In this document: piece after piece, positions 1 through 20,858 of the stretch
Layout: each line of letters begins with the position of its first letter
Numbering within the stretch: the first letter of the stretch is position 1
From: Clostridiales bacterium
GTDB taxonomy: Bacteria; Bacillota; Sulfobacillia; Sulfobacillales; Sulfobacillaceae
Assembly (NCBI GenBank): GCA_027365485.1
Contig: DAHXNH010000263.1
Span: forward strand, 1 to 46,136
Direction of reading: 5' to 3'
DNA: 46,136 nucleotides
Notes under the pieces: model-generated
Databases searched by the model: none
What the model was told of the DNA's origin: nothing
Seen by the model: the letters and a program-made list of their open reading frames with translations, nothing else
Position numbers and translations under genes: made by a program

Positions 1-99
1 AGCGAATATCCGTCCCCCAACCACAATGGCCGACGGTCGGAGACCGCTCCAGATCAGACCGTGCCGCACCGGGTGTCGAGTGTGTGCGGCCACTCCCGC

Positions 100-126
100 A
101 AAAAAAACCCTGAGTAGTTACAGGGT
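100..126 (-). terminator. Rho-independent terminator of the small exported-peptide gene
   Basis: Read on the minus strand, a 6-bp stem (ACCCTG/CAGGGT, 107-112 and 121-126) with an 8-base loop is followed directly by a run of about eight T. The stop codon of the minus-strand peptide ORF (118-120) lies in the loop, so the hairpin ends that short transcript. This is seen directly; activity is inferred. Confidence 0.75.
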
Positions 127-309
127 ACTTATGGTTGCAGCTGTCGTATTGGAGTCTAATAAGGTACTCACTGGTGGCGCAGCAGCTAGCACTACAGGAG
201 TTAGGGCCAAGCTCATCGTGGCGCCTATCAGAACGCTAATCGTGCGCCAGAAGCCCCGCCGCGGAGCCGGTCGTTCGGGTTTTGCGCTGGCTTGGATGGT
301 TAGCAACAT
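118..309 (-). CDS. Small exported or membrane peptide, 63 aa, putative ECF-sigma target
   Basis: I recognise no family. The ATG at 309 (a TTG lies one codon upstream) follows a weak GAAGAG site. The predicted peptide has a basic N-terminus (K10, R13, R17, R18, R21), a hydrophobic stretch at about residues 23-42 ending in VVLAAAP, which looks like a signal peptide with an Ala-X-Ala cleavage site, and a short Ser/Thr-rich tail of about 20 residues. A terminator covers the stop codon, and an ECF-type promoter identical to that of the sigma gene at 18.8 kb lies 21 bases upstream of the ATG. These make a complete one-gene transcription unit, which is the main reason to believe in so short an ORF. 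The forward ORF at 26-331 on the other strand has no such signals. It could be a secreted signal peptide or a small membrane protein; function is unknown. Confidence 0.5.
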   Translation of the reverse strand: MLLTIQASAKPERPAPRRGFWRTISVLIGATMSLALTPVVLAAAPPVSTLLDSNTTAATISTL

Positions 310-458
310 CAATCACTCTTCTTTTCAGTGATAACGCCGTAAAAGTGACTTCGGTTACAACCGGCGGCTTTGCCATCGCCTAGCAGCCCAATGGATCCGA
401 CACGTTGTGGCGCACGGAGAATGCGGGGCATAGCTGGAACCAGATTACCCAACAGTAG
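309..458 (+). pseudogene. Remnant of an Asp-box (BNR-repeat) protein, C-terminal end
   Basis: One forward frame reads through an Asp-box-like stretch, LWRTENAGHSWNQI, and ends at TAG 456-458. It carries an in-frame stop at 381-383 and no start, so it can only be a decayed fragment. The repeat resembles the Asp-boxes of the intact protein encoded at 19347-20858 (TDNAGQSWTRW, TQNNGRTWQEI), suggesting a lost paralogue. It abuts the left end of the IS630-type element, and its upstream part overlaps the minus-strand ECF-type promoter. The reading is based on one repeat only. Confidence 0.35.
331..359 (-). promoter_or_regulatory. ECF-type promoter (TGTAACC-N16-CGTTAT) upstream of the small peptide gene
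   Basis: On the minus strand the -35 element TGTAACC (353-359) and the -10 element CGTTAT (331-336) are separated by 16 bases. Both hexamer-like elements and the spacing are identical to those upstream of the ECF sigma gene at 18783-18811. The form (AAC core at -35, CGT at -10, 16-bp spacer) is usual for ECF sigma promoters. Transcription would begin close to the peptide's start codon. Assignment to this sigma factor is inferred. Confidence 0.65.
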
Positions 459-473
459 CCATTCACTAGCGAA

Positions 474-504
474 CTATATGGTCGGCATTAAAGATTGATA
501 GTTT
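474..504 (+). repeat. Left terminal inverted repeat of the IS630-type element
   Basis: The 31 bases beginning CTATATGGTCGGCATTAAAG are the reverse complement of 1883-1913 with one mismatch. The copy lies outside the transposase gene and begins next to a TA. Confidence 0.75.
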
Positions 505-1912
505 TGGGACTGTAGTATGCGAATGTTCGGTGTATAGTACAAACGCGGCGATTTCCGGTCCGCTCAACCCGTTTTTTAGCGCCACCACCCCCCGGGTGGT
601 GGCCACTTTGGAGTCGAAGCGGAGCCATCTGGATCCCTGCTGGAACCTCGGGGATGTGGCAGTAGCCCCTCCCAAACGGGAGCGGCAATCAGGATGGAAT
701 CCGACGGACTCAGGTCCCAGGTGCTTGTTATAATCCCATGCACAGACGCTCTCGGGTATTGTCCGGTGTGGTGTTCACCATCGCGATAACCGCCTGGACT
801 GCGAGTTTGATCGCCGCCACCGAGCGGAAGAAGACGTGGTCGATGACCGACCGTTTGAGCCAGCCCCAAAAGGCTTCAATGAGATTCATTTGGGGGCTAT
901 AGGGAGGCAAGAACACCAAGGTCAAGTCGTCGCGATGCTCGGCGAGAAACGGTTGGATGAGCTTCGCATGGTGAATCTTAGCATTATCGAGAATCATGAC
1001 CACCTTTTCGCCCGGATACCGGGCGACCGTCTGTTCCAGAAACTCGAGAAACACTGGCGCGTCATCATGGTCGTGCAGCAGGCAAAACCCCTCTCCAGTT
1101 ACATAATCCAGGGTCCCCAGCATTTTAGCGCCCCAGTGCTTCCCGAATGTCGGAATGATCTTTTGTTGCCCTTTCGGAAACCAGGTGTGGGTGAGGGCTT
1201 GGTCGTCGCGAATCATCGATTCATCCTGGAACCAGAGGCGGTCCACCGATCCCAGGACCAATTGGATCTGAAGCTTCCGAAACGTCTGGCGAAACGCCTC
1301 CTGTTTGACCGGGTCAGCTTTGGCTAATGTATAGGTGGGGCAGGTAAAGCTCATATTGAGGCGGTACAGCAAGGCTCGAACCCCGCGATCGGAATAGGAC
1401 TGGTCCCACTCGCGGCGGATCCATTCCTGCAAGAGGGGAGTCCGCCAGTTCATTTCTGCCGGAAAGCCTACGTCCGCCGGCGTCTTTTCCACAATCATGT
1501 CGTATAATTGTTGCTCTTGTGCCTCCGTCAAGCGCCGCGGCCGACCTGTCGGCCGGATCATCGCCAAGCCGTTCAATCCATTCTGGCGGTAGGCCTCCAC
1601 ATAACGGCTGATGGTGGTCATCGAGCGCTTCACCATCTGGCTGATCGCTTGGTAGGAATGGCCCTGCAGGACCATATCCACCACCGGGTAGCGTTCGTGC
1701 AAGCGCACATTCTCGCGAGAATTCAATGCGCCATCGAGTTCCTGCAGCGCCTGGTCCCTATCGATAGTATCCAATAATTTCGGTGTTTTCATCGTATGTC
1801 CCCATCCAGCGATCGTTCCCTACACGATACTGGAAAACGGGAAAAATAATCAGTCCCGAATTTGACCGTCGAGTGGACGGCTAAACCATCAATCTTTAAT
1901 GCCGACCATATA
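475..1912 (-). mobile_element. IS630-type insertion sequence, about 1.44 kb
   Basis: A near-perfect 31-bp inverted repeat (474-504 and 1883-1913) brackets a single transposase gene read on the minus strand. Both ends have TA next to the inverted repeat, in line with the TA target duplication known for IS630/Tc1/mariner transposases. About 220 bases of non-coding sequence lie between the left repeat and the transposase stop codon. The right end cuts an HPP-family gene; the left flank is not the other half of that gene, so DNA was probably lost or rearranged after insertion. The exact boundaries are inferred from the repeats and the reading frame. Confidence 0.7.
728..1792 (-). CDS. IS630 family transposase, DDE type
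   Basis: This 354-residue protein cuts and joins the element's ends. The N-terminal 90 residues form a helix-turn-helix region (SYQAISQMVKRSMTTISRY) followed by a GRPRRL linker. The catalytic DDE_3 domain shows D190 in WFQDES, D269 in VMILDNAKIHH and E306 in SPQMNLIEAFW, which is the complete D-D-E triad with the spacing expected of IS630 enzymes. The length is usual for the family and no frameshift is seen, so the enzyme may be active. The start ATG overlaps the end of the chimaeric HPP reading frame (ATGA). The large forward ORF at 836-1327 is its antisense shadow. Confidence 0.9.
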   Translation of the reverse strand: MKTPKLLDTIDRDQALQELDGALNSRENVRLHERYPVVDMVLQGHSYQAISQMVKRSMTTISRYVEAYRQNGLNGLAMIRPTGRPRRLTEAQEQQLYDMIVEKTPADVGFPAEMNWRTPLLQEWIRREWDQSYSDRGVRALLYRLNMSFTCPTYTLAKADPVKQEAFRQTFRKLQIQLVLGSVDRLWFQDESMIRDDQALTHTWFPKGQQKIIPTFGKHWGAKMLGTLDYVTGEGFCLLHDHDDAPVFLEFLEQTVARYPGEKVVMILDNAKIHHAKLIQPFLAEHRDDLTLVFLPPYSPQMNLIEAFWGWLKRSVIDHVFFRSVAAIKLAVQAVIAMVNTTPDNTRERLCMGL

Positions 1913-18782: not shown

Positions 18783-18811
18783 TGTAACCTTTACGAGGAT
18801 GCTGACGTTAT
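18783..18811 (+). promoter_or_regulatory. ECF-type promoter (TGTAACC-N16-CGTTAT) of the sigma gene
   Basis: TGTAACC (18783-18789) and CGTTAT (18806-18811) with a 16-base spacer lie just upstream of the sigma coding region. ECF sigma genes are commonly autoregulated, and the same motif occurs upstream of two other genes in the window. The -10 element ends 23 bases before the proposed CTG start. Confidence 0.8.
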
Positions 18812-18834
18812 GATTGGGGAAGGGGTGAATCAGC

Positions 18835-19350
18835 CTGGCGGCCGAGCAGGGAGATCAAGAAGCTTTTGCCACCTTCATGGAGGCGCATGGTACCAAAGCG
18901 CTCCGTTTCGCCTTGCTGACCCTCAGGGACCGGGCAGAGTCGGAAGACGTGGTACAAGAGGCGTTTTTGCGACTGTGGCGTCATAGCCTTCGACGAGGAC
19001 TAGAAACGCTAAGTCCGGCATTGTTGTTTCATACCATTACCAACCTTTGCCGAGACCATATGCGTCACAGAAAACGACACCCGGAGGATTCCAGCGAGTT
19101 GATGGAACTCGTCCACGCTGCTGCCGAGACAGGCGATCTAAGTGAGGAGTTGGCGGTTATGGAAGCCGTGATGCAACTGGAAATGGCCGAACGTCAATGC
19201 ATTCTCATGTTTTATTATATGGATCATTCTTTGAAAGAAACGGCCGCCGCCCTCGGACTGAATGAACAGGCCGTCAAAACCCGACTATTTCGGGCACGAC
19301 AGCATCTGCGGCCGCTACTCGCTCCCATCTGGAAGGAGGAAATGTTGTGA
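18835..19350 (+). CDS. ECF-type RNA polymerase sigma factor
   Basis: The protein of about 171 residues (157 from ATG 18877) redirects RNA polymerase to stress or surface-sensing promoters. Region 2 is seen in QEAFATFMEAHGTKALRFAL and ESEDVVQEAFLRLWRH, and region 4 in ERQCILMFYYMDHSLKETAA with LNEQAVKTRLFRARQHLRPL. The ATG at 18877 falls inside region 2.1, so translation must begin earlier. The in-frame sequence reaches back to TGA 18826 and contains only CTG 18835 as a plausible initiator, behind AAGGGG. A frameshift joining the ATG at 18810 is the alternative. The gene overlaps the next one by four bases (GTGA), the usual layout for sigma and its anti-sigma. Confidence 0.85.
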   Translation: MAAEQGDQEAFATFMEAHGTKALRFALLTLRDRAESEDVVQEAFLRLWRHSLRRGLETLSPALLFHTITNLCRDHMRHRKRHPEDSSELMELVHAAAETGDLSEELAVMEAVMQLEMAERQCILMFYYMDHSLKETAAALGLNEQAVKTRLFRARQHLRPLLAPIWKEEML

Positions 19351-20858
19351 GCCAACCTCCACACAGCGATCGTGTTGGCAAAGCTATCGATCGCGCCTTT
19401 GATCAGCTTGACGTACGCTGGGATACCACCTGGGTACCCCACACCCGTCATCGGACGCGTTGGATTGCCTGGACCGGGGCAGGCACGGCTGCTGCCGCGG
19501 CCGCGGTGGTGGCACTCTTTATTCCCTGGTCAGGAACACTGAGCAATCAACAAGTCAGTGTAAACGTCCCGGTAGCCGCGGCTCCATCCTTACCGGGATC
19601 AGTGACTCGCACCCTTCACGCTTTTCATGCGTCGGATTATGTCGTCGAGGGGATGGTCCCGGTCTACGCCTCCTATCCTGTGGTCAATCCTACCGCCCAT
19701 TCCTATTCATTTATGGGAAGTTTCCACTACGACGGAGTCAGTGGCAATCAATTGTCCCTGGTGGTGAATGCCGCGAGTCAAACGGTAACCAACGGGGTAT
19801 TGTTTGCGTCCCAAAGTCCCGTCTACTCCTTCCGTCTGAAACTTGGCAATCCGGGACAACCCTTCACCGTGCTTCACTCGCAAGTGATCACGGCCGCGCC
19901 TACCCCGTCTCTTTTAGCTGGCACCTGGTATCAGGCAGGATCTAGCCAAATCAGTAGTTTTACCGCCTCCGGTCCCATCGTCTATGCGACTCACGAAGGC
20001 TACTGGACCTCGATTTCAGGACAAGGGAACGGACTGTGGCAAAAGCCGCCGCAAGGCTCCCCGATGTCCGAAACCGCTACCATCGCCGGCTTGCCCGCTG
20101 ACCCGGCCCATGCCTTACTGGTCGAAGAAGCGTCGTCAGGCCTGAGCGAAGGCTATGTCACGGACAATGCCGGGCAGTCTTGGACCCGTTGGGGTCTTCC
20201 CTCGGTGTCCTTTTCCAACTTAATTTCGATGAATCATCGATTTTGGGCAGTTATCAACGGCAGCCTGGAGGAGAGCCAAAGTGGGTCATCATGGCACTCG
20301 ATATTGCCGGTCAACCCCAATAAATGGCAAGTCCAGGATTTTGCCGTTAATCCTGCCCATCCCGCCATGCTCGTCGCTGCCTTGGTGCCGCTGGCCGGAA
20401 ACGGCATCGGCCCCGTGCTGACCACCCAGAACAACGGACGCACCTGGCAGGAAATTCCCAACTTCCCTAACCTTGGAGTCGCTCCATCCGATATGGCCGT
20501 GTTGCCCGACGGCAACATTTCTGCTTTAGTCGGTTTAACCAAGCCGGTATTAGTCGAGTACCATCAGAGTGCTCAAATCTGGCAAATTATCCCTGTGCCC
20601 AGGCAAGCCATGGGCGTCGGCACCGGTGAACTGACTGCCGCCCCCAACGGCAATCTAGTCTACGGTGCACCGGGTGGCAACATTTACGTCTGGGATCAAG
20701 CCCAGTCCGTGTGGCAAGTGATTGACGCTCCGGCCACGGCCCCGCTGAATGCAGCTCCAGCCAATCCATTAGAAGCCATCGGCGACCAAGAAGTGATGGC
20801 CGGTTACCAGTCGGGTTGGTATTATTTCGCTATCAGTTCGACGCCTACCCCGCAATAA
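19347..20858 (+). CDS. Membrane-anchored Asp-box (BNR) protein, putative anti-sigma partner
   Basis: This 503-residue protein starts at GTG 19347, overlapping the sigma gene. About 37 charged N-terminal residues would be cytoplasmic. One transmembrane helix follows (about 38-60, including GTAAAAAAVVALFI), then a large extracytoplasmic part with Asp-box motifs VTDNAGQSWTRW and TQNNGRTWQEI, typical of beta-propellers. Order, coupling and topology are those of a sigma/anti-sigma pair, but I see no ZAS or HXXXCXXC motif, and the cytoplasmic part is very short, so binding to the sigma factor is inferred. The propeller could sense a surface ligand. The 3' end overlaps the convergent SCP2 gene by 14 bases. 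Confidence 0.7.
   Translation: MSQPPHSDRVGKAIDRAFDQLDVRWDTTWVPHTRHRTRWIAWTGAGTAAAAAAVVALFIPWSGTLSNQQVSVNVPVAAAPSLPGSVTRTLHAFHASDYVVEGMVPVYASYPVVNPTAHSYSFMGSFHYDGVSGNQLSLVVNAASQTVTNGVLFASQSPVYSFRLKLGNPGQPFTVLHSQVITAAPTPSLLAGTWYQAGSSQISSFTASGPIVYATHEGYWTSISGQGNGLWQKPPQGSPMSETATIAGLPADPAHALLVEEASSGLSEGYVTDNAGQSWTRWGLPSVSFSNLISMNHRFWAVINGSLEESQSGSSWHSILPVNPNKWQVQDFAVNPAHPAMLVAALVPLAGNGIGPVLTTQNNGRTWQEIPNFPNLGVAPSDMAVLPDGNISALVGLTKPVLVEYHQSAQIWQIIPVPRQAMGVGTGELTAAPNGNLVYGAPGGNIYVWDQAQSVWQVIDAPATAPLNAAPANPLEAIGDQEVMAGYQSGWYYFAISSTPTPQ

Follow-up and report, generated by a model that had tools for sequence, protein, structure and literature searches.

A 63-codon frame behind an ECF-type promoter in a Sulfobacillaceae genome is probably an exported Ycf48/BNR-like gene truncated by an ISBst12/IS66-like insertion

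Introduction

The minus strand of window positions 100-357 carries, in this order, a promoter, a weak GAAGAG, a 63-codon open reading frame (ORF) and a hairpin with a T-tract, the window being the whole stretch of 46,136 nucleotides analysed here (assembly GCA_027365485.1, a Clostridiales bacterium of the Sulfobacillaceae). A sequence-only reading took this arrangement for a complete mini-transcription unit encoding a secreted peptide of about 20 residues, which raises the question of whether a peptide gene stands here at all. Our analysis does not bear this out, as the frame ends only where a mobile element interrupts a gene of about 400 codons. The reading that we favour, with a probability of roughly 0.88, is that the frame is the stub of an exported Ycf48/BNR-type gene belonging to an ECF regulon and truncated by an ISBst12/IS66-like insertion, and that this regulon is probably run by the sigma factor encoded at 18877-19350 of the same window. 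The features of the stub locus and their basis are the following:

1 to 121, no strand assigned: end of a dispersed transposable element (repeated copies; terminus compared with the ISDge4 ends, PMC12898284)
100 to 126, minus strand: hairpin and T-tract spanning the gene/element junction (scan, fold, five other junctions without such a hairpin)
118 to 120, minus strand: stop codon TAA, entirely within the element end (element boundary at 121 and direct reading)
118 to 309, minus strand: 63-codon stub, read as the truncated 5' end of an exported Ycf48/BNR-like gene (ORF list, homology, shuffle test, paralogues)
316 to 321, minus strand: weak ribosome-binding-like GAAGAG, with AAGGAG in the intact relative of genome G001 (sequence comparison)
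331 to 357, minus strand: ECF-type promoter TAACC-N16-CGTTAT (spacing as in the intact G001 gene, motif counts, placement statistics)

Results

The promoter motif is enriched and often precedes genes for exported proteins

On the minus strand the promoter consists of TAACC at 357-353, a spacer of 16 bases and CGTTAT at 336-331, and a scan for sigma-70 promoters gave no match at this site. For genome-wide statistics we searched for the pattern and for its reversed version as a control. TAACC-N16-CGTTAT occurs 34 times in the own genome against 2 for the control, and 23 times against 3 in the same-genus genome G001; with a spacer of 15 to 17 bases, the own genome holds 37 sites against 11 of the reversed pattern. 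Counts exceed the control in many members of the family and are near zero outside it. The placement of the sites is also distinctive: an ORF of at least 100 amino acids lies within 250 bases after 25 of the 28 N16 sites examined, compared with 39% at random positions drawn from the same loci rather than from the whole genome, and an ORF with a strongly hydrophobic N-terminus follows 14 of the 28, compared with 6% at such positions. Several ORFs behind the motif are Ycf48/BNR-like, for example those on contigs C80, C133, C142, C208, C245 and C260. The claim of an ECF-type promoter was thus upheld by the presence of the motif and its 34 to 2 excess, and it is well supported by these comparisons that TAACC-N16-CGTTAT would mark a regulon of exported proteins with the stub's promoter as a member.

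Regulon-type promoter sites were also seen upstream of 2 short winged-helix ORFs, at G000 C142:27963 (plus strand) and C97:3891 (minus strand). The C142 ORF matches Pfam Trans_reg_C and the C97 ORF is similar by eye; both could possibly be secondary regulators within the regulon.

The window encodes an ECF sigma factor and a candidate anti-sigma factor

A second site of the motif lies in the window, in front of 2 overlapping genes:

18785 to 18811, plus strand: second site of the promoter motif, before the ECF sigma gene (kept before 29 of 30 orthologues)
18877 to 19350, plus strand: ECF sigma factor, likely regulator of the promoter (Pfam Sigma70_r2 and Sigma70_r4_2 and NCBIfam sigma70-ECF above cut-off)
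19347 to 20858, plus strand: candidate anti-sigma factor (4-base overlap with the sigma gene, position after sigma kept in relatives, model and fold search)

The sigma ORF also scores above the Pfam cut-off for r4, and the motif site sits 65 bases ahead of it. Among the 30 best orthologues, one per genome and the window gene included, TAACC-N15-17-CGTT stands at most 160 bases upstream in 29, with 0.055 expected in shuffles, and the exact N16-CGTTAT form in 16. Autoregulated ECF factors are usually recognised by such a motif before their own gene, and the pattern of conservation suggests that this sigma factor is probably autoregulated. Close orthologues with a named carrier come from Bacillota MAGs and Sulfobacillus acidophilus AMDSBA3, which places the window in a Sulfobacillus-like bacterium. 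Among the papers searched, none dealt with an ECF sigma factor in Sulfobacillus.

The sigma frame is open upstream of its ATG at 18877 (ISLAAEQGDQEAFATF, window 18829-18877, plus strand), a segment that holds no ATG, GTG or TTG. A CTG at 18835 lies behind AAGGGGTGA and may be the true start.

The 503-residue product of the adjoining gene has about 40 N-terminal residues, a transmembrane/hydrophobic segment and a large propeller-like outer domain. This gene follows sigma in the relatives read, and the pair is kept across the order. The model of the protein, with a mean pLDDT of 66 (poor for residues 1-80 and about 200-280, 70-90 for most of the others), matches beta-propellers, including YCF48 (2xbg, TM-score 0.65 by target length). 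From its position and predicted architecture we infer that this product is probably the membrane anti-sigma factor of the sigma factor at 18877-19350, which in turn would probably drive the stub's promoter.

It is unlikely that the stub is as described here but that another ECF factor acts on its promoter. Further sites of the motif near other regulator-like ORFs (C245, C142 and C97) are what gives this alternative some weight; against it stand the motif ahead of the window sigma gene and its orthologues in 29 of 30 genomes, the usual mark of autoregulation, and the confinement of counts above control largely to the family.

The frame matches the N-terminus of an exported Ycf48/BNR-like protein

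The stub ORF starts with ATG at 309 and ends with the stop at 120-118, giving 63 amino acids with a basic N-terminus and a hydrophobic segment; an alternative TTG start at 312 would give 64 codons. When the 63-residue protein was searched in 61 genomes, besides itself only a 406-amino-acid gene of G001 was convincing, and the rest were at chance level. The stub aligns with the N-terminus of the G001 protein at 45% over residues 16-59 (44 residues, E 6e-5), a match of paralogue level with the closest intact homologue rather than with an orthologue with an empty site. The local alignment scores 86; 2000 shuffles reached at most 58, and block shuffles, in which the N-region, core and tail were shuffled separately, at most 75. 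The alignment includes the export-signal-like N-terminal segment, common to both proteins. Co-linearity with the G001 gene extends to the DNA between the -35 and the start codon, with TAACC-N16-CGTTAT at identical spacing, CGGCGTTAT in both, and similar sequences (AAGGAGTGAT and AAGAGTGAT) before the start codon. Several elements seen in the sequence-only reading were therefore recovered, namely the weak ribosome binding site (GAAGAG at 321-316) and the basic N-terminus with a signal-like hydrophobic segment, the latter shared with the intact exported G001 protein.

In the G001 protein the motif GW...T.DGG..W is repeated, and Pfam gives weak matches, under its cut-offs, to BNR_2 and Sortilin-Vps10; paralogues of about 390-450 codons are present in the own genome and its family. 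A sequence search of solved structures with this intact homologue returned no match. The stub frame ends just ahead of the first propeller repeat and keeps no propeller blade. Because of the N-terminal homology to the G001 protein, the co-linear promoter DNA and the stop before the first repeat, we take the 63-codon frame for a 5' remnant; judged by these comparisons, it is a fragment of a Ycf48/BNR family gene and not a working member.

The frame is closed by the end of a dispersed element

A genome search with window 1-720 showed that bases 1-121 recur at 9 other places in the own genome with 78-99% identity, one of these recurrences spanning just 77-121. In the aligned copies likeness ceases at ...TGAGTAGTTAC, around window base 121, and the flanks past this point are unrelated. 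Read inward on the minus strand from base 121, the terminus is GTAACTACTCAGGG (window 121-108); it is present in other copies too, so that the window and these copies have a terminal repeat of the GTRACTRCTCAG type. By this comparison window 1-121 is the end of a transposable element, likely of the ISBst12 group of the IS66 family, and the boundary at about 121 is independent of the family assignment. The window begins inside the element, and this copy is not seen whole.

A DUF6444-like frame, slightly under the Pfam cut-off, was found at another such terminus (C142); we take DUF6444 to be part of IS66-type transposases. One copy sharing the window's end carries an IS1634-like DUF4277 gene deeper inside, which is probably nested because the repeat common to most copies ends short of it. 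An IS1634 identity based on this gene was dropped for the same reason, and since the terminus and the DUF6444-like frame fit ISBst12/IS66 better.

The assembly (96% complete, 440 contigs) was searched for the missing part of the gene. The partner junction GAGTAGTTAC+AGTACCCT, with the 8-bp target duplication expected beside the partner end, is absent from it, and none of the other copies of the terminus in the own genome was found to have the remaining part of the gene next to it; this remainder may be lost or unassembled. As neither the other gene half nor the partner junction was found, it is from the element's end that an insertion, and not another rearrangement, is deduced.

Other mobile sequences were noted in the genome. 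An IS630-type element occupies window positions of about 474-1913, with a DDE_3 transposase at 728-1792 on the minus strand and matching ends at 474-504 and 1883-1913, similar to ends found again elsewhere in the genome. Its distance from the stub's promoter, on the upstream side, is about 115 bases, which leaves the stub with mobile elements on both sides. The 87-base stretch at 388-474, upstream of the promoter, has an 86% identical copy at G000 C320:808-894, which stops where the IS630-type element begins. At G000 C418:10539-10592 (L091, L092), 2 ISBst12-like termini stand inverted, about 54 bases apart end to end, and possibly form a miniature element.

The hairpin is formed jointly by gene and element

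At the junction, read on the minus strand, base 122 is the final base of the gene, base 121 finishes a CTG codon and the element's TAA (120-118) follows. The hairpin has the sequence ACCCTG-N8-CAGGGT and is followed by the T-tract; its left arm ACCCT is gene sequence, and its right arm, the stop codon and the T-tract are element sequence. A terminator-like hairpin appeared in 1 of the 6 junctions folded, the window's own (-9.1 kcal/mol, z -2.1), its energy being reached by 7 of 200 shuffles. A scan for terminator-like sites in the first 2.5 kb found 4 against 2.4 expected, so that the hairpin alone is not beyond chance, and Rfam gave zero matches over the entire window. The proposed terminator holding the stop codon hence survives in part: hairpin and T-tract exist, but the stop, the T-tract and one arm come from the element and the scan result is not beyond chance. 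The preferred reading of the hairpin is a coincidence of where the element inserted, with the arm ACCCT matched by chance, though the hairpin may still work as a terminator.

These results bear directly on the idea of a genuine short exported signal or effector peptide gene under ECF control, with the element end merely serving as its terminator, which we consider highly improbable. The succession of promoter, start, export-signal-like segment, stop and hairpin speaks for it, as does a hairpin whose folding energy is attained by just 7 of 200 shuffles, but a repeated element supplies the stop, the T-tract and one arm of the hairpin, and the sole convincing relative is the N-terminus of a 406-amino-acid protein. 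Among the 61 genomes no comparable short ORF stood out, and the conservation of a short ORF proposed as a check turned up none ending here. Barely conceivable is a domesticated remnant, in which the hairpin-ended transcript was retained after insertion because the signal-peptide stub or the RNA gained a use: an intact promoter and a fused hairpin that would give a transcript a clean end speak for it, but nothing is conserved past the ancestral 5' end and the hairpin is unique to the window junction, in one genome only.

A proposed history of the locus

Three computed observations underlie the truncation of an exported Ycf48/BNR-type gene: the end of the element, the stub's homology, and the enrichment and placement of the motif. 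In the proposed history, a gene for an exported Ycf48/BNR-type protein of about 400 residues would once have stood under the ECF promoter, and an ISBst12/IS66-like element would have entered it after about 63 codons. Through its terminal repeat (GTAAC...), the element would have supplied an in-frame stop after one hybrid codon, and the last bases of the gene (ACCCT) would happen to form, together with the element, a hairpin ahead of the element's T-tract. The locus would be reduced to a promoter and the signal-peptide stub that it drives; any transcript would give a fragment that is not conserved and presumably has no function. The promoter itself would be a member of the exported-protein regulon, which the autoregulated sigma factor (18877-19350) probably controls together with its membrane anti-sigma partner. 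The site is therefore best read as a decayed member of an ECF regulon and not as a peptide signal.

Discussion

The peptide-gene reading of this locus should be dropped, and the case illustrates that the end of an insertion sequence can mimic a full gene ending, stop codon and terminator included. The more interesting part is the promoter and its regulon, since a genome-wide motif and a candidate sigma/anti-sigma pair in the window are directly testable. We would put at even odds that they represent an undescribed Sulfobacillus-like ECF regulon with an autoregulated sigma factor, a membrane anti-sigma factor whose Ycf48-like propeller lies outside the cell, and dozens of exported proteins. Several of these proteins also contain propeller repeats, and the exported proteins may interact with the sensor or shield it.

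Comparison with known systems places each part of the locus. For the element, ISDge4 (ISBst12 group, IS66 family) has published ends reading GTGACTACTCAGCA and GTAACTGCTCAGCA and an 8-bp target repeat (PMC12898284); the terminus here is GTAACTACTCAGGG. A DUF6444-like frame adjoining another such terminus in the own genome adds to the likeness, whereas no transposase was seen for the window copy, whose contig begins inside the element, and a DUF4277 gene lies further in within one copy. With respect to Ycf48/BNR-repeat beta-propeller proteins, the intact homologue shares the GW...T.DGG..W motifs and gives weak BNR_2 and Sortilin-Vps10 matches, although its Pfam scores are below cut-off and the stub retains the export signal only.

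The sigma/anti-sigma pair resembles Tt-RpoE1 and Tt-TolB of Thermoanaerobacter tengcongensis, in which Tt-TolB has transmembrane residues 39-61 and a sigma-binding N-terminus and the Tt-RpoE1 promoter is tGTTAC-N16-CGTC (PMC3397946). In both systems a membrane protein adjoins an ECF sigma factor that looks autoregulated, and the window's neighbour has, like Tt-TolB, about 40 N-terminal residues, a single transmembrane segment and a large outer domain; in both, 16 bases separate the -35 from a CGT-type -10 (PMC3397946). The window pair, known from sequence and model, differs in its motif, TAACC-N16-CGTTAT instead of tGTTAC-N16-CGTC (PMC3397946), in the Ycf48-like outer domain of the putative anti-sigma factor and in the many exported proteins that carry the promoter.
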